Shown in pieces: positions 96-18,730 of a stretch of DNA of 18,730 nt (position 1 is its first letter; each line of letters starts with the position of its first letter). The DNA is from a candidate division WOR-3 bacterium. Lineage in GTDB: Bacteria > SDB-A. The notes under the pieces were generated by a model. It made no database searches and was not told the DNA's origin. It worked only from the letters and a program-made list of their open reading frames with translations. The DNA is taken from positions 1-18,730 of the forward strand of contig JAFGSQ010000069.1 in NCBI GenBank assembly GCA_016934535.1, read 5' to 3'. The position numbers and the translations under genes are program-made.

Positions 96-155
96 GTTCA
101 CTCCTCTTTTTGTGGTCAACCAAAAAAAAACACTCCTCCGACAAAACTTTCGTTA

Positions 156-184
156 TTTTTATCCTTTTTCCAATAATCTGTCAA
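156..184 (-). promoter_or_regulatory. Sigma70-like promoter for the partial secreted-protein gene
   Basis: On the minus strand a perfect -35 TTGACA (complement of 179-184) is followed after exactly 17 nt by TAAAAA (complement of 156-161), a 4-of-6 match to the -10 consensus. It lies about 60 bp upstream of the ATG at 95 and after the end of glmS, so the secreted gene can be transcribed independently of the glm operon. The leader carries the 8-mer GAGGAGTG twice (complements of 131-138 and 99-106). Only the second copy is spaced as a ribosome-binding site. Confidence 0.55.
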
Positions 185-250
185 CTTTTATAAATATTTT
201 GTTCCCTTGCCCTGAGGAAAATATTCCTTAAATTGAGACTATTTCAACAT

Positions 251-3408: not shown

Positions 3409-4085
3409 TAAAGTCCGCTAATGCTTATGCCTATGCTGTATGATTCTTCTTTAATGTCAATTTCGGGAAGAATGACTCTGTCGTTGGACAATCTTCTCAG
3501 ACTGTTTATTGTCCATGCGAAAGAAACCACTCTCGTCAGAATGGCTCCGGAAATGATGTAAGAAGCGTTCTGAAGAGCCTCTCTTGAATTTCTTCTCATT
3601 CCCCTGTAAAAATCGTATTGTGCCTGTCTTCCGCTCCAGTCCCATGCGTAAGAACCGGAAAAACCGTTTTCCTGAATATATCTGAGTTGGGCGTCATAAT
3701 CATCCGGATAAAGCTTTCTGGCATCTTCCCTTATTTTCAAATTGTAGCTCTCCGAATTTTCATACCATTCGACGGCGTCCCAATATGTTTCGCTTCTCTC
3801 GCCTGAATAAGCGCCTGAGTTATCACCCGCGTACATACGGTAGTTGTTAATTATTGAGTTCCCTTTCCATCTCATCGAAAGGTAGCCGGTCCAAACCAAA
3901 CCTTCGGCGATGAACAGACCTAACGCGGCTTTTTTGTTGCCGAGCAGAAACTCTCCTGCTCCGGGAACGAGTATAGAGGCAAACAATACCTTCGATCTGG
4001 ACGGTGCGGAAAAAATTTCCGATTTGAACGCTATTCCGTTCAGCAAAATATTGAAGGAAATAAAAGCGATTAATATTTTTTTCAT
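3405..4085 (-). CDS. DUF5683-like membrane/secreted protein
   Basis: A 226-residue protein of unknown function. A signal-like hydrophobic N-terminus (residues 3-20) is followed by a hydrophobic, Gly-rich segment, ASILVPGAGEFLLGNKKAA (36-54), continuing into GLFIAEGLVWTGYLSMR. This is the SxLxPGxGxxxxG signature I associate with DUF5683 proteins. A polar middle rich in Tyr, Glu and Asp follows, then another hydrophobic stretch around 175-195. The C-terminus YSIGISISGLY ends in a beta-strand-like run with a terminal aromatic, as in outer-membrane barrels. It overlaps both neighbours by ATGA. The protein encoded at 14016-14429 shares the same signature and a similar tail. A role in the envelope is inference only. 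Confidence 0.72.
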   Translation of the reverse strand: MKKILIAFISFNILLNGIAFKSEIFSAPSRSKVLFASILVPGAGEFLLGNKKAALGLFIAEGLVWTGYLSMRWKGNSIINNYRMYAGDNSGAYSGERSETYWDAVEWYENSESYNLKIREDARKLYPDDYDAQLRYIQENGFSGSYAWDWSGRQAQYDFYRGMRRNSREALQNASYIISGAILTRVVSFAWTINSLRRLSNDRVILPEIDIKEESYSIGISISGLY

Positions 4086-7000
4086 TTGATCACCGCCATT
4101 TTGACAAATTTTACTGTTGTGTTTCCTGAATCCCTGGCTTCAATTCTGAGCAAATATACACCCGCGGCGAGAAAACCTACATCAAAGCTTTTTTCGTTTA
4201 TACCTGTAAAAGTGTCTCCGTTAAAAGTATCTTTTTTGTCTCCGGCTATATCGAAAATTGCAATCTCTATTTCGTCGACTTCCTCCGACAAAGTATACCT
4301 CAGATAGGCAGTGGTTCCTTCAACAGGATTCGGCCAAACGTAAAGATCTGAAAAGTCGGCGAACAAAACGGGATTTTGCCCGGGTTGATTTTGTTTCAAG
4401 TCGTGAGCCGGGTCTCTGCGGAACATAGGCCAAGGCGATTTTCCCGTGTCTCTTCCGAGACTCCATCCGCGGATCTTACCGTCATCGACATTGGCTATCA
4501 AATCAATAAAACCGTCTCCGTCAAAATCAATAACCGTTGGAGTGCTGTATACTGAATCGCCGCAGCTCAAAGGAAAACCTCCGATAACTTTTCCTTTACA
4601 GTCAAATCCGCATATCCAGCCGCTTATTGTTCCGATTATTATGTCTGTCTTGTCGTCCCCGTTTACGTCGGCGAGGACAGGCGAAGACTGAACATTGAAT
4701 GTGTCGCCGAGACTGACGGGAAAACCTTCTAAAACTGCACCGTTCGCATTATACGCGTAAATTTTACTTCCGAAAGCGGCAACTATATCCAGATAACCGT
4801 CATCGTCTATGTCTCCCAACGAAGGAGAAGTGACGTACGATTTTCCTTCGAGTTTTCTGTTCCATATATTTTTTCCGTCATAAGTGAGAAGATGAAGACC
4901 TCCGTCTCCGCGAAGAACTACAATTTCATCAAATCCGTTGCGATCAATGTCAGCCAGACAAAGAGAAGAAGTCGTCAAAATCAGAGAGGGTTCGAAAACT
5001 CTCCATTTTTCCATCCAAGTTCCGTAAGAGTTCTCGGAATAAGCGTGAAGAACACCGTCTCCGCCCAAAGCATAAAGAAAACTGTCTCCTAAAACCGGCG
5101 TTGACCAGACCCAGTTACCCATTTCCATTGGAAAACCGGGAACTAAGTCTGCTTTACCGTCTTTGTCGGCATCTTCCATTTTGAAACAGTAAAATTTGTT
5201 GTCGTTTGCGCCGACCAATAGTTCTTTCATGCCGTCCCCGTCAATATCAAGAAGTGCTGGACTGCAAGCCACTCTTGCGTTGACCCTGACGGGAAAACCG
5301 TCAACGGCCTGAGGGGGTATCATGTTGGGCAGAGAATGCCAAGCGTATATGTATCCGTTTTCGTTGCCGCAGACTATTTCTTTCCCGTTCAAAGTGTCAC
5401 CGTCTGCTTCAGCTATAACAACTGATGTAAACGATTCGGCGTATGTCCTGAAAAAAATTGTTGTGGTTGATGTGTTTGTTCTCATATACCCGCTTCCGTC
5501 TCTTTCAAAAGCATAGACGGTTCCGTCTTCAGTTATTGTCACAAGTTCCAGCTCTTCATCGTAATCAATATCGCATATTACGGGAGAGTTGACGTCGAAA
5601 GTGCCGATAACGAAAAAAGGAAAGTTGTCGAGAAGCCAGTCGAAACTCACGTTGAACCTTGCGATCGTGTCGTTTATTATTCTCAGGCTGTCTATTCTCA
5701 AATGTGTGACGGATCCGAAATTGTCGTTTGTGTTAGGATTTGTATAAGCATCAAATCTGGTCAAACCGCCCGGTTTGAACAAGTCGTATTCATTGCCGTA
5801 AAAAGTTGAATTCCAGTTGGTCACTTCGTAATAACCAAGTTCACAGTCCTGTATTCCGTCCGCTTCCTCAAGGTCTACTCCATGAGGAAATCCGGCATTT
5901 ACTCTGTTGTCTTCAACTGTCGTGTCAACTTTTACTCTGTCTATATGCCATATTGCAAGGCCACCACTGCTGTCGCTTTGCGGAAGGCTGTAGTCGTAGT
6001 CGAAAAATTTCACCATTACGCCGCCTCTCCAAACCCTAGTCGCGTTAGAGTCCGGATTGACGTGTGACGTGTCTCCCGGAGTAGCGGAATATCTGTATGA
6101 AATAAGAAAGTGCTCTCTGTTGTTAATTGGGATTTTCACGTAATAAACGGCTGTTGTGTCCAAGGAACCTCGCCACCTGAGTTCCACGGTTGTGTCTCTG
6201 ACAATCTCAGAAGGACGGGACCAACGCGGATAACTCATGTACGAAGTATTCCACACATCGTGATGAGGAGGGACAAGGCCGTCGAGGTTCCAGTTTCCAG
6301 TCCCCATCAGTGACCACCCGTTGCATCCCATAGTCTGACCGGAAACATCGTAAAGATCATACGCGCCAAGCTGATGAGCAAACTCGTGCGTCAGTCCACC
6401 CTGAAGATATGCGACGCCTCCGTCCTGGAAACCGGTCTCACAATACATCACGGCTTCAAAAATGGAATCAGTTCTGTTGTTTGCATATATAGGTTCCCCG
6501 AAAAGGGCGTCTGCACCTCCGATCCAAACTGCCGGAAGATCGTAGGGACTGTCGCCGTAATCAGTCTGCCACATAGATCCCGCGTGAAAAAGGACGATTG
6601 CATCGTATTCAGAAAATATTATATTTGCCGCTGTGTCTTTGTCGGCTTCATAAACTGCATCACGCAACAGATAAAAAAGTCCGTAGACAATGTTCTGCGG
6701 TTCTCCATAATAAAGCATCTGGTGCGGAACGGTGTAAGAAGCTGATTCTCCGGCCGGAAATATGTCGTAATCAACGTAAAGGAAGTTTTTTGTGTCGCTC
6801 AAATAATAATTTTGGAGAGCTTCCATCTGATGACCGAAATATGACAAATTATGCGGTGGATCATATCTGAGGTTGTGAGATCCGTCCGAATTATATTCAG
6901 GCTCGCCGTTTCCTGTATAATTGAATTTACCGTTGCCGGTTGTCAAGGACGAGTTGTCCTCCTGGAATTCAACTCTGAGAACCAAAACCTTCATTGTGTC

Positions 7001-7213
7001 CGTATCCCTGGGACCGTCACCGAATTTATATACCTTTCTCGCCGGAGCATTAAAATGATATCCTGCGAGCGGATTGTTTCTGTATAATTCCAGCTCTTTT
7101 TCTATAAATCTGCCTGCGTTCCCGCAAAATAAATCTTGCATCTGGCCAAATTCGATGTTAGCATTCATGGCCGTTGCAAGCAGGAAGCAGGTTGAAAAGA
7201 GAGTCAATTTCAT
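4082..7213 (-). CDS. Secreted M6-family metalloprotease with FG-GAP/VCBS propeller and T9SS-like C-terminal domain
   Basis: A 1043-residue exported zinc protease. A signal peptide (about 1-18) is followed by an M6 (immune inhibitor A-like) catalytic domain at about 70-460. That domain shows zinc motif HEFAHQLG (His276, Glu277, His280), a downstream WSLMGTG turn with Met303, and the M6-type IWHIDR near 421-426. Residues about 540-920 hold about eight VCBS/FG-GAP repeats with Asp-rich loops such as DIDGDG, DIDDDG and DVNGDD, likely a calcium-binding beta-propeller. SPWPMFRRDPAH (927-938) closes this region. The last 85 residues, from LYVWPNP with FDIAG and AAGVYLLRI, resemble a type IX secretion (Por) sorting domain. 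AAAGGAG lies 5 nt before the ATG. First gene of the glm operon. Substrate unknown. Confidence 0.93.
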   Translation of the reverse strand: MKLTLFSTCFLLATAMNANIEFGQMQDLFCGNAGRFIEKELELYRNNPLAGYHFNAPARKVYKFGDGPRDTDTMKVLVLRVEFQEDNSSLTTGNGKFNYTGNGEPEYNSDGSHNLRYDPPHNLSYFGHQMEALQNYYLSDTKNFLYVDYDIFPAGESASYTVPHQMLYYGEPQNIVYGLFYLLRDAVYEADKDTAANIIFSEYDAIVLFHAGSMWQTDYGDSPYDLPAVWIGGADALFGEPIYANNRTDSIFEAVMYCETGFQDGGVAYLQGGLTHEFAHQLGAYDLYDVSGQTMGCNGWSLMGTGNWNLDGLVPPHHDVWNTSYMSYPRWSRPSEIVRDTTVELRWRGSLDTTAVYYVKIPINNREHFLISYRYSATPGDTSHVNPDSNATRVWRGGVMVKFFDYDYSLPQSDSSGGLAIWHIDRVKVDTTVEDNRVNAGFPHGVDLEEADGIQDCELGYYEVTNWNSTFYGNEYDLFKPGGLTRFDAYTNPNTNDNFGSVTHLRIDSLRIINDTIARFNVSFDWLLDNFPFFVIGTFDVNSPVICDIDYDEELELVTITEDGTVYAFERDGSGYMRTNTSTTTIFFRTYAESFTSVVIAEADGDTLNGKEIVCGNENGYIYAWHSLPNMIPPQAVDGFPVRVNARVACSPALLDIDGDGMKELLVGANDNKFYCFKMEDADKDGKADLVPGFPMEMGNWVWSTPVLGDSFLYALGGDGVLHAYSENSYGTWMEKWRVFEPSLILTTSSLCLADIDRNGFDEIVVLRGDGGLHLLTYDGKNIWNRKLEGKSYVTSPSLGDIDDDGYLDIVAAFGSKIYAYNANGAVLEGFPVSLGDTFNVQSSPVLADVNGDDKTDIIIGTISGWICGFDCKGKVIGGFPLSCGDSVYSTPTVIDFDGDGFIDLIANVDDGKIRGWSLGRDTGKSPWPMFRRDPAHDLKQNQPGQNPVLFADFSDLYVWPNPVEGTTAYLRYTLSEEVDEIEIAIFDIAGDKKDTFNGDTFTGINEKSFDVGFLAAGVYLLRIEARDSGNTTVKFVKMAVIK

Positions 7214-7218
7214 CCAAT

Positions 7219-7225
7219 CTCCTTT
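7219..7225 (-). promoter_or_regulatory. Strong Shine-Dalgarno for the M6 metalloprotease
   Basis: AAAGGAG on the minus strand (complement of 7219-7225) sits 5 nt before the ATG at 7213 and fixes the start. With AAAGGAG before dnaN and AAGGAGG before the OmpA-like gene, it shows this genome uses classical ribosome-binding sites at some genes. Confidence 0.7.
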
Positions 7226-7293
7226 AGCTTGATTGCAGTTTTAACTGAAAATTTGAGATGACAGAAAATATAATTCATAAGTTGAGAGTAGAA

Positions 7294-7322
7294 AATTTAA
7301 CAGAAAATAACCGTTCAGTCAA
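7294..7322 (-). promoter_or_regulatory. Sigma70-like promoter of the M6 protease-glmM-glmS operon
   Basis: On the minus strand, -35 TTGACT (complement of 7317-7322), exactly 17 nt, then -10 TAAATT (complement of 7294-7299). It matches the promoter before the secreted gene at the left edge in -35 type, spacing and a TAAA-type -10. The predicted transcript would start about 75 nt before the ATG at 7213 and run leftwards through four overlapping genes. Confidence 0.55.
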
Positions 7323-7383
7323 CCTCTACATTTTTGGCATGTTTGAAGACATATTCTTATTTATATGAGCAATTTTACTTTTA

Positions 7384-7403
7384 TGTTGAAAAAAAATTCA
7401 ACA
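7384..7403. repeat. Perfect 7-bp inverted repeat with A6 loop
   Basis: TGTTGAA (7384-7390), AAAAAA, then TTCAACA (7397-7403) form a hairpin-capable palindrome in the dnaA upstream gap, about 170 bp before dnaA. It could be a structural element of the origin or leader, or a repressor site. No U-tract follows on either strand that would make it a clear terminator. Confidence 0.35.
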
Positions 7404-7461
7404 ACAATAAGAGGAACTATGATAAGCAGCAATATAGAGCAGGTTATAAATTTTACATTTT

Positions 7462-7482
7462 TGTGGAAAACAATGTGAATAA
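7462..7482 (-). promoter_or_regulatory. Pair of DnaA boxes upstream of dnaA
   Basis: Two 9-mers in the same orientation, 3 bp apart: TGTGGAAAA (7462-7470; complement TTTTCCACA, 8 of 9 to TTATNCACA) and TGTGAATAA (7474-7482; complement TTATTCACA, a full match). They lie about 90 bp before the dnaA start. They are plausible for origin binding and/or for dnaA autoregulation. The reading rests on sequence match only. Confidence 0.6.
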
Positions 7483-7569
7483 ACCTTGTTTTATTAACAT
7501 TTACTTTTTATTGAATGATATTTCACAATTTCCAACAGTTGATAAATGAAAAATTTAAGCAAATAAATT

Positions 7570-8928
7570 ATGCCTGACAAAGAAACTGATAAAAGCGCCG
7601 AAAACTGGGAAAGAATAGTAAAGCTTCTGAAAAATGAAGCTCCTTTTGAAGGTCATGAATCTTTAAATCTCTGGTTTGCCAATTCAAAAGCTTTACATAT
7701 GGATGACGGAGTTTTAAAGATAGAAGTCCCAAACTCAACAATAAAAGATTGGATAGATCACAATTATCTTAAAAAAATTAACAATTTAATAAAAGCAAAC
7801 TTTCCTAGTAATTTCGAAATTACTTTTATTGCAAAAGAGTTCAACCACATACCTGAACCTGAAATTAAAATTGAAACTCAGGAAGCGGTTATAAATATAA
7901 GCACGACAAATCTGGACAATAGATATACATTTGACAATTTTATTCAAGGAGACAGCAACAAATTTGCTTGTGCAGTCGCCGTTTCTGTTTCAGACAATCC
8001 GGGTACAAGATACAATCCTCTATTTATTTATGGCGGAGTCGGCCTAGGAAAGACTCACATTTTAAACGCCATAGGTAATAAAATAATTCACGGAAGAAAA
8101 TTAAAACAGATTCTTCTAACCTCGGCTGAAATGTTTGTAAATGAATTGATTGAATCCATAGGAAAAAACCAGCAAACAATCTTCAGAAAAAAATACAGAA
8201 ACCTTAATGTTCTGATGATAGACGACATTCAGTCTCTTGTGAGATGGGACAGCGCTCAGGATGAATTCTTTCACACTTTTAACACTCTTTATAGTTTAAA
8301 AAATCAAATTGTAATGACATCAGACAGACCTCCGAACGAAATTCCGAAACTTCACGAAAGGCTTATATCAAGATTCAGACAAGGATTGATGGTTGAAATT
8401 AAACCGCCTGAACTTGAAACGAGAATAGCCATATTAGAAAGATATGCTCAAAATAATCACATAAATGTCGAAAAAGAAGTGCTAGACGCTATAGCAAGAA
8501 AAGTAACAGACAACGTCCGGGTTCTCGAAGGTGCCCTCATAAGACTTTCTGCATTCAGTTCCATAGTAGGAAAAGATGTCATAGACATTGAAATGGCGCA
8601 TGAAATATTAAAGGACATTTTAAAAAGCGAAGAAAAAGTTATCACTCCTGAGATTATACAGAAGAAAGTAGCTGAATTTTTTGATTTGTCGGAATACGCG
8701 ATAAAGGGGAAAAAAAGGAACAAATCAATCGCTATTTCAAGACACATTGCTATGTATCTGACAAGAGAGATGACTGATTTATCTTACAAAGAGATAGGAG
8801 AATTATTCGGAAAAAAAGACCATTCTACAGTAATTCATGCTATTAAAAAAATCGGAAAGAAAATTCAGGAAGAACAGTCGTTTGCAAAAGAAATCGAAAA
8901 AATTAAATCAGACTTGAAAGATAAATAG
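7570..8928 (+). CDS. dnaA: Chromosomal replication initiator protein DnaA
   Basis: AAA+ ATPase that binds DnaA boxes and melts the origin. The 452-residue length is typical. Domain I spans about 8-80 (WERIVKLL ... DWIDHNYLKKI), with a short variable linker to about 115. The AAA+ domain begins YTFDNFIQGDSN and has Walker A GGVGLGKT (155-162), Walker B VLMIDDIQ, sensor 1 MTSDRPP, the arginine-finger region ERLISRFRQG and sensor 2 RVLEGAL. The C-terminal DNA-binding domain carries the family signature DLSYKEIGELFGKKDHSTVI (403-422), with the DHST residues that read the box. The ATG at 7570 has no good ribosome-binding site, but the N-terminus aligns well with domain I. It is followed by a 220-bp gap and then dnaN. 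Confidence 0.98.
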   Translation: MPDKETDKSAENWERIVKLLKNEAPFEGHESLNLWFANSKALHMDDGVLKIEVPNSTIKDWIDHNYLKKINNLIKANFPSNFEITFIAKEFNHIPEPEIKIETQEAVINISTTNLDNRYTFDNFIQGDSNKFACAVAVSVSDNPGTRYNPLFIYGGVGLGKTHILNAIGNKIIHGRKLKQILLTSAEMFVNELIESIGKNQQTIFRKKYRNLNVLMIDDIQSLVRWDSAQDEFFHTFNTLYSLKNQIVMTSDRPPNEIPKLHERLISRFRQGLMVEIKPPELETRIAILERYAQNNHINVEKEVLDAIARKVTDNVRVLEGALIRLSAFSSIVGKDVIDIEMAHEILKDILKSEEKVITPEIIQKKVAEFFDLSEYAIKGKKRNKSIAISRHIAMYLTREMTDLSYKEIGELFGKKDHSTVIHAIKKIGKKIQEEQSFAKEIEKIKSDLKDK

Positions 8929-9148
8929 TGTTTTTGTTTAAAAGAGATGAAAAAAGTGTGGAAATCAGATAAACAATATTGACAAAAAGATTAATAATGA
9001 AAAAATGTGAATTCTTTGAATTTATAAACAAAAGAATTAACAAGGGTAAACTTAATAACTTAATGACATAAACAATGTATCAAGATAATTCACACAGCAA
9101 CAACAACAACAGATATATATTTAATATTAGTTGAAGAAAGGAGAGAAT
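8929..9148. other. dnaA-dnaN intergenic region with DnaA-box-like sites, second candidate oriC segment
   Basis: This 220-bp AT-rich gap holds DnaA-box-like 9-mers: TGTGGAAAT (8957-8965, complement ATTTCCACA, 7 of 9), TGTGAATTC (9006-9014, 7 of 9) and TAATTCACA (9086-9094, 8 of 9). The last abuts a run of CAA trinucleotides (about 9098-9109) and then an AT-rich stretch (9111-9130), a box-repeat-AT layout like an unwinding element. No gene or RNA is recognisable here. Many bacteria place oriC on either or both sides of dnaA, so this may work with the gap upstream of dnaA. Confidence 0.45.
9086..9130 (+). promoter_or_regulatory. DnaA box next to a CAA repeat and AT-rich tract (possible unwinding element)
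   Basis: TAATTCACA (9086-9094) is followed directly by CAG, then four CAA repeats and CAG, then ATATATATTTAATATTAG. A box next to a phased trinucleotide repeat and an AT tract is the geometry of the DnaA-trio unwinding element, but CAA does not fit the published trio consensus. The assignment is therefore tentative. Confidence 0.35.
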
Positions 9149-10273
9149 ATGAAATTTAAAACTTCCTCCGATGTTTTTCTTACAAGCCTGGAACCTCTTT
9201 TATCAATCGTTCCTCAGAGAACACCGTATAATGTTTTAAAAAATCATTTGAAAATGACTGCGGAAAAGAAAAAGATTAAAATTCTTGCCACAAATATTGA
9301 AACTACCGGAGAACTGTCATTCGACGCAGACGTAGAAAAAGAAGGTGAAATTGTAATACCGGTCAAAAAACTGACTGATTTTTTGAGAAAAATTCCTTCT
9401 TCGGAATTGAGTATAGAAGCTGTTTCTGGAAAACTAAATTTTATGTATGACAAAGGATATTTTCATTTACCAACTGTAATGCCTGACGAATTTCCCGAAA
9501 TTCCTGAAGTTGTGCCTGAAAAAGAAATTCTTTTTAACCCGAGAATGTTAAAAAAAATGGTTGATAAAACCGCTTTTGCGATAAACACAATTGGAGCGAC
9601 TAGCCCTATTGTCGACGGTATTTATTGGAAATTTAAGGGAAAAAATACAGAAATGGTAGGAGCGAGTAACCACAGACTCGCAAAATTTTCCAATGAAGTC
9701 CAAATAAACGCCGATTTTTCTGTAATAATACCTCAAAAGTTTCTTGTACACGTCTCTTCATACGTCGAAGAAGAAGATATAAAAATCTCTCTTGGGCAGG
9801 AAAGAATCAGTTTTCATATACCTGAAAAGAACCTTTTACTGACAAGCAGACTAATAAATTTTAATTTTCCAGATTACAGTAAAATAATATTTGATTCTTC
9901 AAAACATAAATTTCAGGTAAATAAAAAAACTATTTATGAAGTAATAGCGAGAATTTCAATTTTTTCAGATTCTCTATCTTTCAGGATAAAATTGTTTTTT
10001 GACAAAGATAATAAACTTGAAATTTCTTCATCTTCAACAGAAAGCGGAGAAGCAAAAGAAACAATAGAATATATGAGGAATTCAAAAGGGAATGAAAAAA
10101 TTAAAATTCCGATTAATTATCACTACATTACTGATATATTGAAAAATATTGAAAGTGAAGATGTTTTGTTTTTGATAAATGAGACTGATAAAGCTATTGA
10201 AATCGTACCTGCTGAAGAAGATCCTGGTGAGAAAGTTGTTTATATTTTGATGCCTTTACATTCTAAAGACTGA
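9149..10273 (+). CDS. dnaN: DNA polymerase III sliding clamp, beta subunit
   Basis: The ring-shaped processivity clamp of the replicative polymerase. The 374 residues from this start are the usual length. Recognisable segments include the N-terminal MKFKTSSDVFLTSLEPLLSI, the domain-2 region with AINTIGATSPIVDGIYWKF and the ligand-pocket-like ASNHRLAKFS (clamps usually have TDGHRLA here). The C-terminus EKVVYILMPLHSKD matches the family VxMPMR-type ending, with LH in place of MR. The ATG at 9149 is preceded by AAAGGAG (9137-9143) at 5-nt spacing, so the in-frame TTG at 9131 is not the start. One nucleotide separates its stop from the next gene, a penicillin-binding protein, where recF would normally be. 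Confidence 0.96.
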   Translation: MKFKTSSDVFLTSLEPLLSIVPQRTPYNVLKNHLKMTAEKKKIKILATNIETTGELSFDADVEKEGEIVIPVKKLTDFLRKIPSSELSIEAVSGKLNFMYDKGYFHLPTVMPDEFPEIPEVVPEKEILFNPRMLKKMVDKTAFAINTIGATSPIVDGIYWKFKGKNTEMVGASNHRLAKFSNEVQINADFSVIIPQKFLVHVSSYVEEEDIKISLGQERISFHIPEKNLLLTSRLINFNFPDYSKIIFDSSKHKFQVNKKTIYEVIARISIFSDSLSFRIKLFFDKDNKLEISSSSTESGEAKETIEYMRNSKGNEKIKIPINYHYITDILKNIESEDVLFLINETDKAIEIVPAEEDPGEKVVYILMPLHSKD

Positions 10274-10274
10274 C

Positions 10275-12389
10275 ATGAAAGAAAAAGGTTTTTTATTTTT
10301 TAAATTTTTATTGATCCCAATAATTTTTTGCATCGCAGGTACAGTTTTAGGATCGGTTCTTAGATTTAGATTCCTTGAAGACAGCATAAAAGATCAGCTA
10401 CCTCTTGTTAACACACTGGAAAATCCTGCTTCAGGTGTTACAAGGATATACGACAGAAATAATAAATTAATTGCCGAATTTTCGACACAGTGGAGAGACC
10501 CGGTTCCTTTGGAATCAATACCTGAATATCTCGTAAAAGCAATAATTACAGTAGAAGACAGAAGATTTTACGAACACAAAGGGATTTCATGGTTTGATAT
10601 AGCGCGAGCTTTCATTAAAGACATAGTAAGCTCGGAAAACGTATCGGGTGCGAGCACTATAACTCAACAGCTTGCGAGAAACAGATTTTTAGGTTTTGAA
10701 AAATCCATGCAGAGAAAACTTAAAGAATTTTTTTTGGCCAGGGAAATAGAGAGGAATTTTTCAAAAAATGAAATACTTGAATTGTATCTCAATGAAATAT
10801 ATTTTGGACAAGGTGCTTACGGAGTAAAAGCGGCGGCAAAAAGATATTTCAATAAAGATTTATCTGAACTAACTCTTGCGGAATGCGCATTGATAGCAGG
10901 TATTCCAAGACAACATAATTATTATAATCCTATCAGGAATTATAACGCGTCCCTTGAAAGAAGAAATTTAATATTAAAGATGATGAAAGATTTAGGACAG
11001 ATTGACGAAGAAACATATAATGCTGCAAAAAGAGAATCTCTTTTAGTAAATGAAGGATACCTGCTTGGTGGAAAGGCACAGTACTTTGTTGAAGAAGTCA
11101 GAAAGTGGCTGATATCTCACTACGGAATCGAGAGAATTTATCAAAAAAACGGCGGACTGGATGTTTATACGACTCTGGACTTGGACGTTCAAATAGCTGC
11201 AGAAAGTATATTGGAAATAAATTTAGACAATCTTGAAAAAACATACAGTTTAAGACCGAAAAGACTAGACGAAAACTCAATTGATGAAACGGGTAAAACG
11301 AAATATATTCAGGGAGCGCTTGTTTGTATACAGGCAGGAACCGGAGAAGTGCTGGCTATAGTCGGAGGAAGAGATTTCGAAGAGAGCGAATTTAACAGAG
11401 CGACACAGGCGAGAAGGCAAGTCGGATCTTCTTTCAAACCTTTTGTTTACCTGGCTGCCATTGACAATGGATTTACTTTAGGAGACGTGATGCTCGACGC
11501 TCCGCTTGCAATAGATTTAGGCGGCGGAAAGCAATATAGACCGCAGAATTACGACTTGAAATATGAAGGATTCATGACTCTGAGGACCGCATTGGCAAAA
11601 TCGAGAAACGTCATAGCTGTTAAGCTTTTAAGGCACGTAGGAGCTTCGACGGTTATTTCATATGCAAGACTGCTCGGAATAAAAAGCCAGTTGAAACCGG
11701 TATTATCACTGGCTCTTGGAACTTGCGATCTGACACTAATGGAAATGACGTCTGCTTTTAGTGTATTTGCATCCGGAGGAATGAGAGCAGATCCATATAT
11801 GATTAGAAAGATAGAAGAAAGAAGCGGAGATACAAGAAACATTATTTTTGAGTATACACCTAAACCTACAAGAGTCATATCAAAAACAACAGCTTACCTT
11901 ATGCAAAGCGCCATGAGATCAGTTGTTAGATCAGGAACAGCTACTTCGGCGGCGAGAAATGCAGGATTGACAAGACCATCAGCGGGAAAAACAGGGACTA
12001 CTGACGACTACACAAACTGCTGGATGGTCGGTTATACTCCGGATATTTCATGCGGTGTTTGGGTAGGATACGACAGCTTGAGGACAATATTCAGATCAGC
12101 TTCCGGAGGTCTTGTAGCGGCTCCAATATGGGCTTCTTTTATTGTAGAAGCGAGCAGAATTTTAAAAATACCTTCTAATGATTTTATCGCACCGGAAAAT
12201 ATTGTGTCATTAACTGTATGTACAGAAAGCGGAAAAATAGCTTCATCTAACTGCGAAAATACATACAGCGAAATATTTATAATTGGAACTGAACCGACAG
12301 AAGTGTGCCCTCTGCACAGAGATTATCTTGGGATGCCGGAGGATCCGGAATTCAAGGATGACACGACGAAACCGATTTTGATTTTTTAA
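10275..12389 (+). CDS. Class A penicillin-binding protein (bifunctional transglycosylase/transpeptidase, PBP1A-like)
   Basis: Polymerises lipid II and crosslinks peptidoglycan from the outer face of the inner membrane. It has 704 residues, with a single N-terminal membrane anchor (about 8-30). The GT51 domain shows EDRRFYEHKG with catalytic Glu94, GASTITQQLARN, the QRKLKEFFLA region and EIYFGQGAYG. The transpeptidase domain has the three active-site motifs SSFK (nucleophile Ser385, Lys388), SRN (443-445) and KTGT (572-575). A C-terminal segment contains Cys-rich VCTESGK...NC...VCPLH, common in PBP1A-type enzymes. It starts 1 bp after the dnaN stop. The next gene, encoding an OmpA-like protein, has its ribosome-binding site overlapping this gene's stop codon. 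Confidence 0.95.
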   Translation: MKEKGFLFFKFLLIPIIFCIAGTVLGSVLRFRFLEDSIKDQLPLVNTLENPASGVTRIYDRNNKLIAEFSTQWRDPVPLESIPEYLVKAIITVEDRRFYEHKGISWFDIARAFIKDIVSSENVSGASTITQQLARNRFLGFEKSMQRKLKEFFLAREIERNFSKNEILELYLNEIYFGQGAYGVKAAAKRYFNKDLSELTLAECALIAGIPRQHNYYNPIRNYNASLERRNLILKMMKDLGQIDEETYNAAKRESLLVNEGYLLGGKAQYFVEEVRKWLISHYGIERIYQKNGGLDVYTTLDLDVQIAAESILEINLDNLEKTYSLRPKRLDENSIDETGKTKYIQGALVCIQAGTGEVLAIVGGRDFEESEFNRATQARRQVGSSFKPFVYLAAIDNGFTLGDVMLDAPLAIDLGGGKQYRPQNYDLKYEGFMTLRTALAKSRNVIAVKLLRHVGASTVISYARLLGIKSQLKPVLSLALGTCDLTLMEMTSAFSVFASGGMRADPYMIRKIEERSGDTRNIIFEYTPKPTRVISKTTAYLMQSAMRSVVRSGTATSAARNAGLTRPSAGKTGTTDDYTNCWMVGYTPDISCGVWVGYDSLRTIFRSASGGLVAAPIWASFIVEASRILKIPSNDFIAPENIVSLTVCTESGKIASSNCENTYSEIFIIGTEPTEVCPLHRDYLGMPEDPEFKDDTTKPILIF

Positions 12390-12394
12390 GGAGG
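12388..12394 (+). promoter_or_regulatory. Shine-Dalgarno deciding a TTG start
   Basis: AAGGAGG at 12388-12394 overlaps the TAA stop of the penicillin-binding protein gene and lies 6 nt before TTG at 12401. It is a near-perfect ribosome-binding site. No in-frame ATG follows for several codons, so it supports TTG initiation and termination-reinitiation coupling. Confidence 0.75.
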
Positions 12395-12400
12395 AGCGAC

Positions 12401-13063
12401 TTGAAATTATTATTGTCGCTGTTTGTCATTGTCATGACTCTTTTCGCAGCGTATTCAGTTTATCTTTATTTTACAAAGTATAAGATGATTGAAGATAAAT
12501 TAATAAGTGTAGAACATGAAAGAAACGCGCTTCTGACTAGAATGGCTTCTGTTGAAGGATTTAAAGTCAACGACACGTTGATGTCAAAAACGAGCACTCC
12601 GTTGACTCCATACGGCAAGGAAATTGTTGATTCGCTGGAATTGCAGGTAAACAATATAATTATGGAAGTCGATTCTCAAGTTTTTATAGGAGCGTCGGTT
12701 GAAATACCCCTGGATAATTTTTTTGATCCGGAATCTATTACAGTGTGGAAGCAAGGAGGAAAAGAGCTTTTACAAAGAATCGGCGACATTATTAACAGAA
12801 GCGGAAACGTAAAAGTTGTTTTTTCTGTATACGTAGACAGTTATATTCCCGGAGAGGGAGAGATTTACGCAATAAAAACCCCATGGGAAGTTGCAGCAAA
12901 AAGAGGACTCGACATAGTTCAATTTCTGAATGACAGCTGCGGAACAGTATCAGCTCAAATAACACTTGAAATTTACGGATCACAGTTTCCAAAAGGAGAC
13001 ACGACTACCAGGGAAGGAAGAGTTGCGACGAGAAGAGTTGTTTTTACGCTTTTGGAAAAATGA
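12401..13063 (+). CDS. Membrane-anchored OmpA/MotB-like protein
   Basis: A 220-residue protein with a TTG start set by a strong ribosome-binding site. One N-terminal membrane segment (about 3-24) is followed by a short charged, coiled-coil-like stretch (about 30-52) and a linker. The C-terminal domain (about 105-220) follows the OmpA/MotB peptidoglycan-binding pattern: GKELLQRIGDIINRSGNVKV, a strand with VDSY, then WEVAAKRGLDIVQFL, then YGSQFP and EGRVATRRVVF. The GRxxxRR near the end matches the OmpA-family GRxxNRRV. The Asp and Arg that bind diaminopimelate in OmpA are only partly recognisable. Its position after a PBP suggests a tether or helper in wall synthesis (inference). It overlaps the next gene by ATGA. 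Confidence 0.75.
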   Translation: MKLLLSLFVIVMTLFAAYSVYLYFTKYKMIEDKLISVEHERNALLTRMASVEGFKVNDTLMSKTSTPLTPYGKEIVDSLELQVNNIIMEVDSQVFIGASVEIPLDNFFDPESITVWKQGGKELLQRIGDIINRSGNVKVVFSVYVDSYIPGEGEIYAIKTPWEVAAKRGLDIVQFLNDSCGTVSAQITLEIYGSQFPKGDTTTREGRVATRRVVFTLLEK

Positions 13064-14019
13064 AAGTCCTGGTTCTTTTCTCAGGCGGACTCGATTCTCT
13101 GTTAGCTTCCTTCTGGGTAAAAAGTTCAGGATTAGAGCCTGAACACATATTTATAAAAACTCCATTCAATAGGTCAGAAAGACCTCAATATTTCGCCGAG
13201 AAATACGGATTGAAATTGAACCTGATAGAAACAGATAGAAATTATTTAGAAATAATAAAAAACCCTGAATACGGAACAGGGAAAAATCTGAATCCTTGTA
13301 TAGACTGCCATGCGTTCATGATAAAACAAACGGGAATTTTACTGGAACATAAAAAAGCGGCCTTCATTGTAACAGGAGAAGTTTTGGGTCAAAGGCCGAT
13401 GTCTCAAAGAAAAGACGGATTGAGATCGGTAGACAGACTGAGCGGATATGGAGAATTGACAGTAAGACCTCTTTCAGGCAAATTACTTGAAAAGACTACA
13501 CCTGAAAAGCTGGGGTGGATTAAAAGAGAAAAAATGTTATCTATTTCAGGAAGAGGTAGAGCAGAACAACTGGAACTGGCAAAGCAATATGGAATAGACG
13601 AATATGAGAACCCGGCAGGGGGATGTCTTTTGACTGATAAAAACATATCATCCAGGACGTTAAAACTTATACAAAGAAACGAATTCGATAAATTCAACAT
13701 TGAACTTGTCAGAGTAGGAAGACATTTTGTATCGCGCTCAGGAACGAAAATAATCTTGGGAAGAAATAAAAATGAAAACGATAAACTCTTTAAAATGAAA
13801 AGAAAAAATGACTTGTTTTTAGAACAGAATAAAATAAAAGCTCCTTCCGCGTTAATTCTGTTTCCCTTCAAAAGCGATGACTTACAGACTGCGGCAGATC
13901 TTATTTGTTTTTTTTCAAAAAATAGGAACGGCAACTTCACGATTCCAGCGCCGGTAGGCGAGATATTAAGCCGTCAATTATCTGACGAAGAAGTTGAAAG
14001 GATGAAGCTGTTTAAATGA
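13060..14019 (+). CDS. PP-loop ATP pyrophosphatase, thiouridylase-like, with NFACT-R-like C-terminal domain
   Basis: A 319-residue cytoplasmic protein. The N-terminus, VLVLFSGGLDSLLA, carries the PP-loop SGGLDS (8-13) used to adenylate substrates in MnmA, ThiI, TtcA and QueC. NPCIDCHAF (Cys80, Cys83), GEVLGQRPMSQ and NPAGGCLLTD (Cys189) follow. This CxxC plus distant Cys arrangement resembles the [4Fe-4S] ligands of TtcA/TtuA-type tRNA thiolases. The C-terminal third has RVGRHFVSRSGTKIILGRNKNENDKL, close to the NFACT RNA-binding (DUF814-like) motif, consistent with a tRNA substrate. A tRNA thiolation role is therefore likely, but the modified position is unknown. It overlaps both neighbours by ATGA. 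Confidence 0.8.
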   Translation: MKVLVLFSGGLDSLLASFWVKSSGLEPEHIFIKTPFNRSERPQYFAEKYGLKLNLIETDRNYLEIIKNPEYGTGKNLNPCIDCHAFMIKQTGILLEHKKAAFIVTGEVLGQRPMSQRKDGLRSVDRLSGYGELTVRPLSGKLLEKTTPEKLGWIKREKMLSISGRGRAEQLELAKQYGIDEYENPAGGCLLTDKNISSRTLKLIQRNEFDKFNIELVRVGRHFVSRSGTKIILGRNKNENDKLFKMKRKNDLFLEQNKIKAPSALILFPFKSDDLQTAADLICFFSKNRNGNFTIPAPVGEILSRQLSDEEVERMKLFK

Positions 14020-14429
14020 ATTTAATCGTTTTTTTATTGATAGTAAACGTAACGGGAGATTTTCAGCCTTCTCCTGCCAGAGCAATATTCTCTTCAGTTT
14101 TAATTCCTGGAGGAGGGCAGTTTTATACAGGTAGAACAACGAGAGGAATAATAATAGGAACGATAGAAGGTTTAATGTTATCTTCCACCGTCTATAATCA
14201 TTTCAAATACAAACATTATTTGAATGAATTTGAGAGAACAGGAAACATTGAAGACAGTCTAAGATATAGAGGTTTTTACGACATGAGAAACAATATGTTG
14301 TGGTGGGATGCCTTTGTTATTGCTGTTTCTGCGGTTGACGCTTATGTTGGCGCCAAGATGTATGCTTATTACGAACACCAGGAAAATGGCGACGGAAGAA
14401 TAAATATTGGATGGGTTTTAAATTGGTAA
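14016..14429 (+). CDS. Small DUF5683-like membrane protein
   Basis: 137 residues, function unknown. A hydrophobic signal-like N-terminus (1-12) is followed by ARAIFSSVLIPGGGQFYTGR (21-40), the SxLxPGxGxxxxG motif also seen in the 226-residue protein at 3405-4085. A hydrophobic stretch (IIIGTIEGLMLSS) follows, then a polar loop, then a second hydrophobic segment (WWDAFVIAVSAVDAYVGA). The tail GRINIGWVLNW ends in a terminal Trp, beta-strand-like. Its ATG overlaps the PP-loop gene stop. Its stop codon lies inside the arm of the first parS palindrome, and it overlaps rsmG by 19 bp. Confidence 0.72.
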   Translation: MNLIVFLLIVNVTGDFQPSPARAIFSSVLIPGGGQFYTGRTTRGIIIGTIEGLMLSSTVYNHFKYKHYLNEFERTGNIEDSLRYRGFYDMRNNMLWWDAFVIAVSAVDAYVGAKMYAYYEHQENGDGRINIGWVLNW

Positions 14430-15025
14430 ATGTTTCACGTGAAACATTTATAGATCAATTTAATGTAAATTTGGAAAAAATTGATAAACTGCTTTTGTTT
14501 GAGAAATTATTAATAGAAACGCTTTCAACACATCAGATAATATCGAGAAAAGATGAAAAAAAGATTTGGAACAGACATATCCTCGATAGTTTAATGATGA
14601 TGTTTCACGTGAAACATTACAATATTGATGTAATAGACGATGTCGGATCGGGAGGGGGTTTTCCTGGCCTGGTTCTGGCCGTGGTTATAGATGAATTAAA
14701 AGTCAGACTTGTCGAAAGAAAAATAAAAAAGTGTAATTTTCTCGCTCAGGTAATAAAAAAACTTGGATTAAAGAATGTTGATATAATTTGTCGTGATTCA
14801 TTCGAAAAAAAAATATTTTCAGACTTCTTAGTTACCAGGGCCGTTTTCGGTGAAAAAGCCAGCGGAAATATTTATAAACTGATTTCGGATAAAGGAATTT
14901 TTTTTAACTATCAGAACGAACTATATCCTATAAGTAAATTAAAGATAATAAATAAACTGGATTACGTTTTACCTGGTGAAGAAAAAAAGAGATATTTAGT
15001 GGCGTACAGAAAATCCTTATTATGA
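14411..15025 (+). CDS. rsmG: 16S rRNA (guanine527-N7)-methyltransferase RsmG (GidB)
   Basis: Methylates G527 of 16S rRNA using S-adenosylmethionine. 204 residues, slightly short for the family. The N-terminal helical part includes IWNRHILDSL. SAM motif I, DVGSGGGFPG, is at 77-86, followed by LVERKIKKCNFLAQV and the TRAVFG motif. Two perfect parS sites lie in the coding sequence and are read as NVSRET (codons 7-12) and MFHVKH (64-69). The ATG at 14411 overlaps the previous gene by 19 bp. An in-frame TTG at 14423 is an alternative start. Its stop overlaps the next ATG. In many genomes this gene sits beside parA-parB, but here an EamA-type transporter gene follows. Confidence 0.93.
   Translation: MGFKLVNVSRETFIDQFNVNLEKIDKLLLFEKLLIETLSTHQIISRKDEKKIWNRHILDSLMMMFHVKHYNIDVIDDVGSGGGFPGLVLAVVIDELKVRLVERKIKKCNFLAQVIKKLGLKNVDIICRDSFEKKIFSDFLVTRAVFGEKASGNIYKLISDKGIFFNYQNELYPISKLKIINKLDYVLPGEEKKRYLVAYRKSLL
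14431..14446. promoter_or_regulatory. parS: parS centromere site 1
   Basis: TGTTTCACGTGAAACA matches the conserved bacterial parS 16-mer exactly. It is the core of a perfect 24-bp palindrome (14427-14450) that includes the stop codon of the upstream DUF5683-like gene. parS is the loading site for ParB (Spo0J) in chromosome segregation and usually lies near oriC, as here, about 5-7 kb from the candidate origin. It is inside the rsmG start region. Confidence 0.93.
14601..14616. promoter_or_regulatory. parS: parS centromere site 2
   Basis: A second exact copy of TGTTTCACGTGAAACA, within an 18-bp perfect palindrome (14600-14617), starting 170 bp after the first. It lies in rsmG in a different codon frame from site 1, so the repeat is kept at DNA level rather than protein level. 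Two sites this close give two ParB loading points on one gene. Confidence 0.93.
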
Positions 15026-15933
15026 AAACGCACACTACAAGAAGTGTATTTTTAGCTTTTATCGCTATGACACTCTGGTCAACAGTAGCAACGGCTTTTT
15101 CTATTGCTCTTAAAAATACCGATTTTTATGAAGTTCTGTTTATTTCAATTAATACATCGACGGTTGTTTTATTTGCAGCTGTTTTAGTCACCGGGAAATT
15201 AAAAAAGATTTTCAACTTGAAAAGTATTTATAAATCTTCTATATATGGGATATTGAATCCATTTATATACTACATAGTTTTGTTCAAGGCTTATTCGCTT
15301 TTAAAAATTCAAGTTGCACAAGGATTGAATTACACATGGCCGATAGTATTGTCTGTGCTGTCATTATTTTTTTTAAAACAAAATATGAAGATTAAGGATT
15401 TTATTGCTCTTTTTTTAAGTTTCACCGGAGCTCTAATACTTATTTTTGGAACCGGACAAGAGTCACTTGGTCAAAACAACTTTATCGGAGTGTGTCTGGG
15501 AATATTAAGCTCGTTGATATGGTCTTTTTTTTGGATTTTCAATATTAAAGACAAACGTGACGATGTTGTAAAAATGTTCCTTAATTTCTTGTTTGGATCT
15601 ATTTATGTAACGATTTTATTTTTTATAACGCGCGGAACATTTGTTTCATTAAATACGGGTTTCTATTCTTCTGTTTACATTGGTCTTTTTGAGATGAGTT
15701 TGACTTTCATTATATGGATTTTCGCATTGAAAAACTCCGATAAAACATCACGGGTCAGCAATATAATTTATCTAACTCCATTTCTTTCACTTGTGTTTAT
15801 TCATTTTATCGGGCAGGAAAAAATTAAACTGACAACTGTTGTTGGTTTGATTATAATACTTATCGGAATATTTATACAGAATCTGGATAAAAAAAAGTGC
15901 TTTAAACTGCAAAAATCAGGTGCAGTTTTGTGA
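15022..15933 (+). CDS. EamA/DMT-superfamily transporter
   Basis: A 303-residue inner-membrane protein with about ten hydrophobic segments in two halves of five, the drug/metabolite transporter fold. The first segment is SVFLAFIAMTLWSTVATAFS (8-27), with the Trp-Ser typical of EamA first helices. A half-repeat appears later as FIGVCLGILSSLIWSFFWIF. The last segment, TTVVGLIIILIGIFIQN, is followed by a Lys-rich cytoplasmic tail. The region FKAYSLLKIQVAQGLNYTWPIVLSVLS resembles the end of an EamA first repeat. Substrate cannot be predicted. It may export amino acids or metabolites, as relatives do. ATG overlaps the rsmG stop. It is strongly AT-rich. Confidence 0.85.
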   Translation: MKTHTTRSVFLAFIAMTLWSTVATAFSIALKNTDFYEVLFISINTSTVVLFAAVLVTGKLKKIFNLKSIYKSSIYGILNPFIYYIVLFKAYSLLKIQVAQGLNYTWPIVLSVLSLFFLKQNMKIKDFIALFLSFTGALILIFGTGQESLGQNNFIGVCLGILSSLIWSFFWIFNIKDKRDDVVKMFLNFLFGSIYVTILFFITRGTFVSLNTGFYSSVYIGLFEMSLTFIIWIFALKNSDKTSRVSNIIYLTPFLSLVFIHFIGQEKIKLTTVVGLIIILIGIFIQNLDKKKCFKLQKSGAVL

Positions 15934-15948
15934 GAGAGAGACTTGAAA

Positions 15949-16779
15949 ATGCTTTTAAATTCTTTCTGTCATCTCGACGGGATAAATTTGAAAAGGGAAG
16001 AAAAAATCTGGGACAACGGAATCAAGAATTGGGAAGAAGCTTTATCGGCAGAATTTCTCTGTGACTCCTCAAAAAACGACCTCCTTGAATTTAGAAAAGG
16101 GATTGAACTCTCGTATCAAAAATTAGAAGAAAAAGCCACGGATTATTTTTTTGATAAAATTCCTCGCGATCAACACTGGAGGTTTTTCAGAGAATTTAAG
16201 GACGAGATGGCTTATCTGGACATAGAAACTACAGGATTGACAAGGTTTGATTCTGTGACAGTTGTTTCTATATATCACAAAGGGAAACTCGGAATCTATG
16301 TAAAGGGTATAAATTTCGATAAACTTCTCACGGACATCACAATTCCTAGAATATTTGTTACTTACAACGGGAACAAATTCGATTTGCCTTTTCTGGAGAA
16401 TTATTTTGGAATAAAAATATTTCAAAACAGAATAGACTTGAGATACGTCCTGTCAAATTTGGGATACAGAGGCGGTTTAAAGAAATGCGAAAAAATGCTA
16501 GGAATTAGTAGAGAAGGAATGAAGAATATAGACGGCAATGTTGCCGTCATGCTTTGGGAAGATTATAAACACAACAAAAACATAAAAGCGTTGAAAACTC
16601 TAATCGCCTACAACGTATCAGATACTGTAAATCTCGAGAAACTATCTGCAATTGCATATAACGAAAATGTAAAAAGAACCAAACGTAATTTTGGTTTTTT
16701 AGAAATGACGGAAAAAAAATCAGTACCTTTCTTTCCGAATCCAACTACTGTAAAAAAGCTATTACAAAATCTAAAATGA
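15949..16779 (+). CDS. YprB-like RNase H-fold 3'-5' exonuclease (DEDD type)
   Basis: A 276-residue cytoplasmic nuclease-like protein, RNase_H_2/YprB family. The four acidic metal ligands are visible: DIETTGL (Asp91, Glu93), TYNGNKFDLPF with Asp145, and YNVSDTVNL with Tyr221 and Asp225. A Tyr four residues before the last Asp makes it DEDDy-like. The family is thought to trim nucleic acid 3' ends, but the substrate here is unknown. GAGAGAGAG (15932-15940) suits ATG at 15949 (8 nt). TTG at 15943 in the same frame would add two residues (MK). It starts 15 bp after the transporter stop and 1 bp separates its stop from the next frame. Confidence 0.82.
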   Translation: MLLNSFCHLDGINLKREEKIWDNGIKNWEEALSAEFLCDSSKNDLLEFRKGIELSYQKLEEKATDYFFDKIPRDQHWRFFREFKDEMAYLDIETTGLTRFDSVTVVSIYHKGKLGIYVKGINFDKLLTDITIPRIFVTYNGNKFDLPFLENYFGIKIFQNRIDLRYVLSNLGYRGGLKKCEKMLGISREGMKNIDGNVAVMLWEDYKHNKNIKALKTLIAYNVSDTVNLEKLSAIAYNENVKRTKRNFGFLEMTEKKSVPFFPNPTTVKKLLQNLK

Positions 16780-16780
16780 T

Positions 16781-18730
16781 TTGAAACGCCTAATACCGCC
16801 ATTTATTTCACAAAAATATGTTGAAAAAATTTTCTCAGGAAATCTTTCTGGTACTGTTTTGTCCGTAGACATCACAGGCTTTACCTCAATGACAGAAAAA
16901 CTTATGGAAAGAGGCAGCGAAGGAGCTGAAATTCTGTCTTATATTTTAGATGAAGTGTTTGATAACATCGTTGAATCAGTATATAAAATGGATGGTTTTG
17001 TGTCTTCTTTTGCGGGAGATGCCTGTAATGCTATTTTTTTTGGGGATCAAAGCATTGAAAATGCTTGTATTGCCGCATTGAGGATCAGAGATTTTTCTAA
17101 AAACAAGAATAATTATGAAACTAAATTCGGTATATATAACGTCACTTTAAAAATTGGACTTTCATACGGGAATATTGAATGGGAAATATTAGATGCAGGA
17201 AAAAGCAAGACTTATTATTTTACAGGAGAAGCGATTCGAAATTGCTATGATTCACAGAAAAAAAGCAAAACAGGAGATATAGTTCTCGATAAACGTGTAT
17301 ATTTATTTTTAAAAAACTTGTATCTAAATCTCAAAAATGTACATTTAATTGAAATTGATAAAGATTTTTATATATTGGATGAATGTAATTTTTGTTTTTT
17401 AGATGAAAATATTACAAAAGAAAAGAAGATAAAAATAGATAGCTCACATGATTTTATTCCCGAAAAGGCATCAGAAAAATATCACAGGGGAGAATTCAGA
17501 GAAGTGCTTCCAGTATTCCTGCTTTTTTCAGATTTTTCTTACAAGAACGAACTGAACAACTTCATTAAATTTATTCTCAACAAAGCGGATCTATTTGGAG
17601 GATTTTTTAGCGGTTTGGATTTCGGAGATAAAGGAAACACTGCACTTATAATTTTTGGAGCTCCCGTGATGCTTGACAACGTCTGGAACAGAGCAGTTTT
17701 ATTTTCCAGGTCGCTTATAGAACTATATGGTGAAAAAGTGAAGATCGGGATTTCTTACGGCACGGCATTTTCAGGAATAGTTGGATCTGAACTTCAAAGT
17801 ACATACACTTGCCTCGGAGATGAAATAAATCTCGCACAAAGAATTTCCATGACAGGCATGGTCGGGCAGATAATTGTCACAGAAAAAGTAATGAAAAAAA
17901 CACATAAATATTTTAATTACAGTGACTTAGGTGACGTGAGAGTTAAAGGAAAAGAATCAAACACACACATTTTTTTATTTTCAAAAATTAAAAAAGAAAG
18001 GTGGAACATTGATTCAACAAAACCTCTGGTTGGAAGAGATATAGAACTGGATAATATTAAAAAAAATGTAGAAAAGATATTTGCAAGTGGTTGGGCTGGA
18101 GTTATTTATGTTTCAGGAGGATTTGGCGTTGGAAAAACGAGACTTGTAGCTGATTTCGTAAAAAAAATCGAAGGCGATGTTGAAGTTTATTTATTTAAAC
18201 CGGACCAAGTGATAAAGAAAAATTTAGGCGTTCTGGAATTATTTTTTAAAGATTTTTTTAAAATTGACGACAGGGACTCAGAAAGAGAAAAGAAAGAACA
18301 GTACATCAAAATTTATAAAAGTTACATTGATGAAAATTCTCGAAACGACGAAAAAGAATTGTCAAGAATCAGTTCAATCATAGGATCTGTAATAGATATT
18401 TATTGGGAAAATTCTATCTTTGATAAAATTGAGTCTGGAGAAAAAGTAGAAACAGTCAAAAATGCATGTGCTTCTTTTATCAAAAGCAGTAAACTGCCAA
18501 CTCTTTGCGTTCTTGAAGATTATGATAGCTTTGACACGTCGTCGCTCGATGTTTTCGATTTGATTGTGAAATCTTCGGAAAAAAAAGAAATAGTAATTTT
18601 AGCGCTGACAAGAAAAGAAACAGATTACAGAAGGTTTGTTACAGGTGAAAATTGTTTTATAAACGAAATGACAATTAATCCCCTTGAAGACTTTCAAGTA
18701 AAAGAATTAATAGAAAATAATTTCGGTGCA
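16781..18730 (+). CDS. Tandem class III nucleotide cyclase with AAA/STAND ATPase, N-terminal part (runs off right edge)
   Basis: An open frame of 650 codons reaching the window edge. An in-frame stop lies at 16772-16774, and the first in-frame ATG is inside the first domain, so TTG at 16781 is the likely start, 1 bp after the nuclease stop. Domain 1 (about 22-190) is a class III cyclase homology domain with DITGFT (Asp30) and FAGDA (Asp80), the two metal ligands. Domain 2 (about 245-415) has GISYGTAFSGIVG and YTCLGDEINLAQR (Asn350, Arg354), the transition-state residues. A P-loop ATPase follows, with Walker A GGFGVGKT (446-453) and Walker B-like CVLEDYD (Glu579, Asp580). The order resembles soluble adenylyl cyclase. 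It probably makes cAMP or senses a signal. The C-terminal part, often TPR repeats, is missing. Confidence 0.88.
   Translation, partial: MKRLIPPFISQKYVEKIFSGNLSGTVLSVDITGFTSMTEKLMERGSEGAEILSYILDEVFDNIVESVYKMDGFVSSFAGDACNAIFFGDQSIENACIAALRIRDFSKNKNNYETKFGIYNVTLKIGLSYGNIEWEILDAGKSKTYYFTGEAIRNCYDSQKKSKTGDIVLDKRVYLFLKNLYLNLKNVHLIEIDKDFYILDECNFCFLDENITKEKKIKIDSSHDFIPEKASEKYHRGEFREVLPVFLLFSDFSYKNELNNFIKFILNKADLFGGFFSGLDFGDKGNTALIIFGAPVMLDNVWNRAVLFSRSLIELYGEKVKIGISYGTAFSGIVGSELQSTYTCLGDEINLAQRISMTGMVGQIIVTEKVMKKTHKYFNYSDLGDVRVKGKESNTHIFLFSKIKKERWNIDSTKPLVGRDIELDNIKKNVEKIFASGWAGVIYVSGGFGVGKTRLVADFVKKIEGDVEVYLFKPDQVIKKNLGVLELFFKDFFKIDDRDSEREKKEQYIKIYKSYIDENSRNDEKELSRISSIIGSVIDIYWENSIFDKIESGEKVETVKNACASFIKSSKLPTLCVLEDYDSFDTSSLDVFDLIVKSSEKKEIVILALTRKETDYRRFVTGENCFINEMTINPLEDFQVKELIENNFGA

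Follow-up and report, generated by a model that had tools for sequence, protein, structure and literature searches.

Two copies of a 16-bp palindrome identical to parS, the chromosomal centromere site, lie inside one gene of a candidate division WOR-3 bacterium. This arrangement raises the question of whether a chromosome can keep its centromere entirely within the coding sequence of a housekeeping enzyme and, if so, whether selection acts there on the DNA or on the protein that it encodes. We addressed this question in the window, i.e., the whole stretch of 18,730 nucleotides that was analyzed, as well as in the remainder of the genome, in relatives, and in other bacteria.

The parS pair, its host gene and the replication origin

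Both sites are exact copies of TGTTTCACGTGAAACA, the 16-bp palindrome of chromosomal parS (consensus TGTTNCACGTGAAACA). Site 1 (positions 14431–14446, no strand assigned) lies at the 5′ end of the gene and is read as (N)VSRET, and site 2 (14601–14616, likewise strandless) occupies the loop that precedes SAM motif I and is read as (M)FHVKH; the sites are 170 bp apart, with NVSRET read in phase 2 and MFHVKH in phase 1. Each is found at the same place in two relatives, G002 and G003. No other match occurs in the window even when three mismatches are allowed (0.13 expected by chance), and a genome-wide scan (76 contigs totaling 2,234,418 bases, completeness estimated at 100%) identified the pair as the sole sites with zero or one mismatch. 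By simple arithmetic, ~0.0005 exact 16-mers and ~0.6 sites with up to two mismatches are expected in this genome, so that two exact copies in such proximity are not attributable to chance. The first-pass annotation had reported perfect 16-mers at these two places and nowhere else, read in different frames as NVSRET and MFHVKH; both readings are correct, and the genome-wide scan that it had proposed revealed no scattered copies, the total being two perfect sites. Two further sites, each with two mismatches, were detected on contigs C10 and C11, a number near the chance expectation, and they may themselves be chance matches. They are located at G000 C10:68083–68098 (L003) and C11:4023–4038 (L004), and one of them shares the contig of parAB.

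The host gene is rsmG (gidB), encoding the 16S rRNA G527 N7-methyltransferase (14423–15025, plus strand). Its product matches TIGR00138 with 108.9 bits (cut-off 99.5) and carries the SAM motif GxGxGFPG as GSGGGFPG, as befits a member of the RsmG/GidB family. Comparison with relatives assigned the start codon to the TTG at 14423, the only start that they share with the window; the surrounding TTGGTAAATGTTTCACGTGAAACA is unchanged across the three genomes. The ATG at 14411 has no counterpart, both relatives being devoid of an in-frame ATG or GTG upstream of site 1. The codon numbers given earlier for the two peptides (7–12 and 64–69) had assumed this ATG and need to be corrected: counted from the TTG, NVSRET occupies codons 3–8 and MFHVKH codons 60–65.

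Site 1 is embedded in a perfect palindrome of 24 bp, visible in the sequence (14427–14450, no strand assigned), which takes in the TAA of the upstream DUF5683 gene (14016–14429, plus strand; Pfam PF18935, E 4e-9); the stop codon of the latter overlaps the rsmG start region. The first-pass annotation had emphasized this longer palindrome, and it is indeed present in the window, but it is not conserved: it spans 24 bp in the window genome and 22 bp in G002, whereas G003 has just the 16 bp of the 16-mer, the one part that is kept throughout. Elsewhere in the window, a ThiI-like ATP-dependent enzyme fused to an NFACT-R_2 RNA-binding domain is encoded at 13060–14019, and an ORF leaving the window (16781–18730) contains adenylate/guanylate cyclase and AAA_16 ATPase domains.

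The origin-region marker dnaA is located at 7570–8928 (plus strand; TIGR00362, E 2.9e-149) and, like dnaN, which is also present, lies upstream of the rsmG region. GC skew is negative up to ~8 kb and positive beyond, with its cumulative minimum at 7–8 kb, at dnaA, which indicates that the origin of replication is probably just upstream of dnaA. The parS pair is thereby placed ~7 kb from both the dnaA start and the skew minimum, near the origin as is the case for chromosomal parS sites. The likely oriC region is the AT-rich divergent intergenic stretch upstream of dnaA (7214–7569, no strand assigned), at the cumulative GC-skew minimum; since a search found one DnaA-box-like site only, we infer the exact position of oriC. 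Alongside the skew flip, G+C content drops from 43–47% left of the putative origin (positions 1–7000) to 31–41% right of it (8000–18,730). Beside the origin, positions 4082–7213 (minus strand) encode a large protein that looks secreted; it contains an M6 peptidase-like stretch as well as FG-GAP repeats and also carries a Por_Secre_tail sorting domain.

The ParA and ParB proteins of the genome

The first-pass annotation had held that absence of a parB gene would count against a centromere at this locus. ParB is encoded on contig C10 (TIGR00180, E 4e-56), as the sole TIGR00180 match in the genome, and it has a ParA partner: a ParA-like ORF, in which the Walker motif KGGVAKTTT was recognized by reading, overlaps the parB start (L005, 657–1445 and 1426–2289). 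The parAB genes and the parS pair are on different contigs. When aligned to Caulobacter ParB 6t1f, the protein retains Q162, G170, K171, S172, R173, N178, G201 and R204, residues whose roles in parS contact have been described (PMC7383237). It thus possesses the parS-specifying residues R173 and G201 together with the other contacts, as a cognate ParB should, and has S179 and D184 at two positions that differ among ParBs (PMC7383237). A Noc-type partner for a Noc-binding site (NBS), with Q173, K179, K184 and R201, was not found, the sole TIGR00180 match having R173, S179, D184 and G201. One ParB is encoded in each of four genomes of the phylum that were examined, all of one family.

The WOR-3 system resembles general chromosomal ParABS (PMC7333895): its parS sites are origin-proximal, and it has both a ParA ATPase and a ParB of the parS-binding type. 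Nothing in the mechanism distinguishes it; what differs is that all parS copies of the WOR-3 genome are within one coding gene. Such a placement is known from Thermus thermophilus HB27, where parSc lies inside rsmG/gidB, is the sole chromosomal parS (one mismatch allowed), and is bound by ParB in vitro, as seen by gel shift (PMC4409726). HB27 has one site, with parA immediately downstream, whereas the WOR-3 genome has two sites and carries parAB on another contig. The WOR-3 locus is a well-supported further example of this known placement, not a new kind of system.

parS inside rsmG in other bacteria

To cover other lineages, 84,980 genomes were scanned for parS immediately ahead of the SAM motif of RsmG, which yielded at least 118 stretches. 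Among the 80 examined in detail (of the at least 118 matches), the site is in the RsmG frame in 78, read as VSRET in 73 and as FHVK[H/Q] in 5. The matches listed span Sphingomonadales, Lachnospiraceae, Leptospiraceae, Rickettsiales, Rhodobacterales and others. Of the five FHVK cases among them, four come from Rhodobacterales or related Alphaproteobacteria (L082, L100, L110, L150), the fifth being G002, and all four also possess an N-terminal VSRET site 134 bp upstream of the FHVK site. When a broad sample of 386 genomes was considered, the exact loop parS was limited to the window's family, and a 5′ parS at matching distance was limited to this family and one other genome. Finally, 30 genomes from diverse families, each with a parS-like site, were inspected; within the sequence retrieved around the site (at most 1.5 kb to either side), rsmG was present in 12, and parS was in the rsmG frame at the 5′ end in two of the 30. 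One of these two, G009, from an unrelated family, carries VSRET and MFHVKH sites at the 5′ end of rsmG, with a spacing of 47 bp. The occurrence of parS in rsmG is recurrent but not common. No description of rsmG as a repeated coding home of the centromere across phyla was found in the literature, with the Livny 2007 parS survey outside our coverage.

The first-pass annotation had called it unusual for one rsmG to hold two sites in different frames, a view that was not supported as stated and is at most partly right: the Rhodobacterales show this very pair in identical order, the Erythrobacteraceae have a two-frame pair of their own, and G009 has a pair as well. In the Rhodobacterales loci (L082, Pseudoprimorskyibacter insulae; L100; L110; L150), rsmG contains two perfect parS, an N-terminal VSRET followed by FHVKH or FHVKQ in the pre-motif I loop, as in the WOR-3 gene; these loci differ in the 134-bp spacing, in a further parS ~2 kb away and in belonging to the phylum Pseudomonadota. 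Erythrobacteraceae, Rickettsiales and Leptospiraceae likewise have two or three perfect parS inside a single rsmG, although at other gene positions and, in many loci, with extra parS outside rsmG. The Erythrobacteraceae use two frames, the loop site being read as VSRET and the one near the C-terminus as MFHVKH, and two Rickettsiales loci have three rsmG sites each, all VSRET.

Two variations on this theme were observed. A Lachnospiraceae rsmG (L095, 720–1538) contains two perfect parS 45 bp apart, both read as VSRET and both in the same pre-motif I loop. In Sphingomonadales (L077, L085, L116, L075, L090 and others), the second site near the rsmG C-terminus is TGTTTCACGTGAAACA, TGTTCCACGTGGAACA or TGTTTCACGTGGAACA; the symmetric change would turn FHVKH into FHVEH with the palindrome kept, which suggests evolution driven by the palindrome.

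Comparison with RsmG structures was used to locate site 2 within the protein. MFHVKHYN aligns ungapped with AFYVDFNQ of B. subtilis RsmG (1xdz), and the matching stretch of E. coli RsmG (1jsx) has a 3-residue gap. The first-pass annotation had proposed checking which residues relatives carry at site 2 where parS is missing; across 27 RsmGs, the segment flanked by the RHxxDS helix and the GxGxG motif proved hypervariable in length and residues when it lacks parS, and the same pre-motif I stretch hosts parS at several offsets. A second tolerant place is the RsmG N-terminal tail, ahead of the first aligned helix. The earlier idea that the N-terminus had adapted to carry centromere sequence fits site 1 but not site 2, which is situated in a loop of the methyltransferase core before motif I. 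An origin-proximal gene with two tolerant places could host parS in the least disruptive frame, and rsmG may be such a host, being near the origin and having an N-terminal tail and a pre-motif I loop that would tolerate any peptide encoded by the 16-mer.

Spacing, ancestry and DNA-level selection

The parS pair was compared with its counterparts within the family. In G002, a member of the same genus whose RsmG is 54% identical, parS occurs at contig positions 1000 and 1170, and in G003, from another genus (RsmG 42% identical), at 4102 and 4290; both pairs are in rsmG at places homologous to those in the window. All three genomes with an assembled rsmG have exactly two parS in this gene and no other site at up to one mismatch. 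A loss of rsmG together with parS in G001 was considered and rejected, its contig beginning inside the gene after rsmG, i.e., at an assembly gap.

The two parS might constitute one spacing-dependent composite element, serving for example ParB bridging or rsmG repression, rather than independent loading sites. In favor of this view, both sites are kept together in three genomes, though other bacteria often manage with a single parS (PMC7333895, PMC4368675). However, the spacing is 170, 170 and 188 bp within the family and 134 bp in Rhodobacterales, on which grounds a conserved spacing was rejected; we consider a composite element unlikely. As neither distance nor helical phase is kept, the two parS would most likely be loaded independently by ParB.

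A slightly less probable alternative is that the two-site rsmG was horizontally transferred between the WOR-3 lineage and Alphaproteobacteria, in which case the shared arrangement would not be convergent. Rhodobacterales indeed show the same order and the same two peptides, and an AU test, performed on the RsmG tree rebuilt without badly filled alignment rows, does not quite reject a joint clade (p-AU 0.057). Nevertheless, forcing this clade costs 18 log-likelihood units, and the family's RsmG is placed apart from the alphaproteobacterial group in the tree, at weak support. Once the parS peptides were masked, BLAST gave Rhodobacterales 56–62 bits versus up to 73 bits for other phyla (Lachnospiraceae and others), and the spacing is 134 bp versus 170 or 188 bp. 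Taken from these sequence comparisons, convergence is favored over transfer, though not proven.

Next, codon usage was compared under and outside the sites. In every pairwise comparison of the three genomes, the parS-encoded residues are identical at 12/12 and the degenerate codons at 11/11 positions. Outside parS, the three pairs share 94/188, 71/187 and 66/187 RsmG residues (35–50%), and the codons at conserved residues are identical in 45/92, 41/69 and 31/64 cases (48–59%). At such background rates, simple arithmetic gives a probability of ~0.0003 to 0.003 for 11/11 identical codons per comparison, the comparisons not being independent. Identity at 11/11 codons under parS versus 48–59% elsewhere places the DNA site under selection and, at the scale of three genomes, all of them draft assemblies in many contigs, establishes purifying selection on parS at the DNA level from sequence comparison. 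This agrees with the first-pass annotation, which had claimed selection on the DNA and had pointed to palindrome-breaking codons for the same peptides as contrary evidence; none were seen in G002 or G003.

DNA-level conservation could also arise if the palindromes formed RNA hairpins controlling rsmG translation or stability, their likeness to parS being incidental. Both 16-mers can fold into hairpins of 6 to 11 bp with an ACGU loop, and site 1 is at the start codon. The z-scores are −1.7 and −0.7 for the window, −2.9 for G002 and −1.8 for G003. However, the hairpins are weak, the exact parS, including its loop, is kept without compensatory change, the site-1 extension is not conserved, site 2 is distant from the start codon with a fold no better than that of shuffled sequence, and this genome, which does encode ParAB, has no other parS. 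Control of rsmG by hairpins may occur, though the support is weak, and as the explanation of the palindromes it is very improbable. Hardly credible is the proposal that VSRET and FHVKH are conserved for RsmG function with DNA conservation as a by-product: both peptides are invariant across three family members, but the codons are identical at all 11 positions under parS versus about half elsewhere, lineages differ in the frame in which the 16-mer in this loop is translated (73 VSRET and 5 FHVK among the matches listed), and RsmGs without parS have unrelated residues and lengths in this loop.

Together, the identity of the sites, their uniqueness in the genome, their proximity to the skew minimum, the contact residues of ParB and the DNA-level selection make us highly confident that the two rsmG 16-mers are the chromosomal parS centromere of this WOR-3 bacterium, where ParB is predicted to load. 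From known ParABS systems (PMC7333895, PMC8494293, PMC7053999), we infer ParB binding, clamp loading, a role in segregation and SMC loading in this organism. ParB would load at each parS, probably as a CTP-dependent clamp, and slide into the flanking DNA; ParA would carry the origin-proximal ParB–parS complex to the daughter cells, and the ParB complex would probably also load SMC.

The locus provides clear sequence evidence for a chromosome's centromere lying wholly inside a coding gene, in a lineage named only from metagenome assemblies, and DNA-level selection here dictates part of the sequence of a housekeeping enzyme. Of more general interest is that rsmG serves repeatedly, across phyla, as a coding host of the centromere. 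We consider it fairly likely that rsmG is a repeated, convergent centromere host, i.e., that unrelated phyla independently wrote parS into the same two tolerant places, in whichever frame fits; in some lineages the entire chromosomal centromere would then be coding DNA, and centromere selection would have shaped part of the RsmG sequence as a by-product. Caution is warranted when VSRET or FHVKH is encountered in RsmG, as these peptides would represent centromere footprints, not functional protein motifs. The recurrence across phyla may offer a way to examine how a sequence reconciles protein and centromere constraints that overlap.
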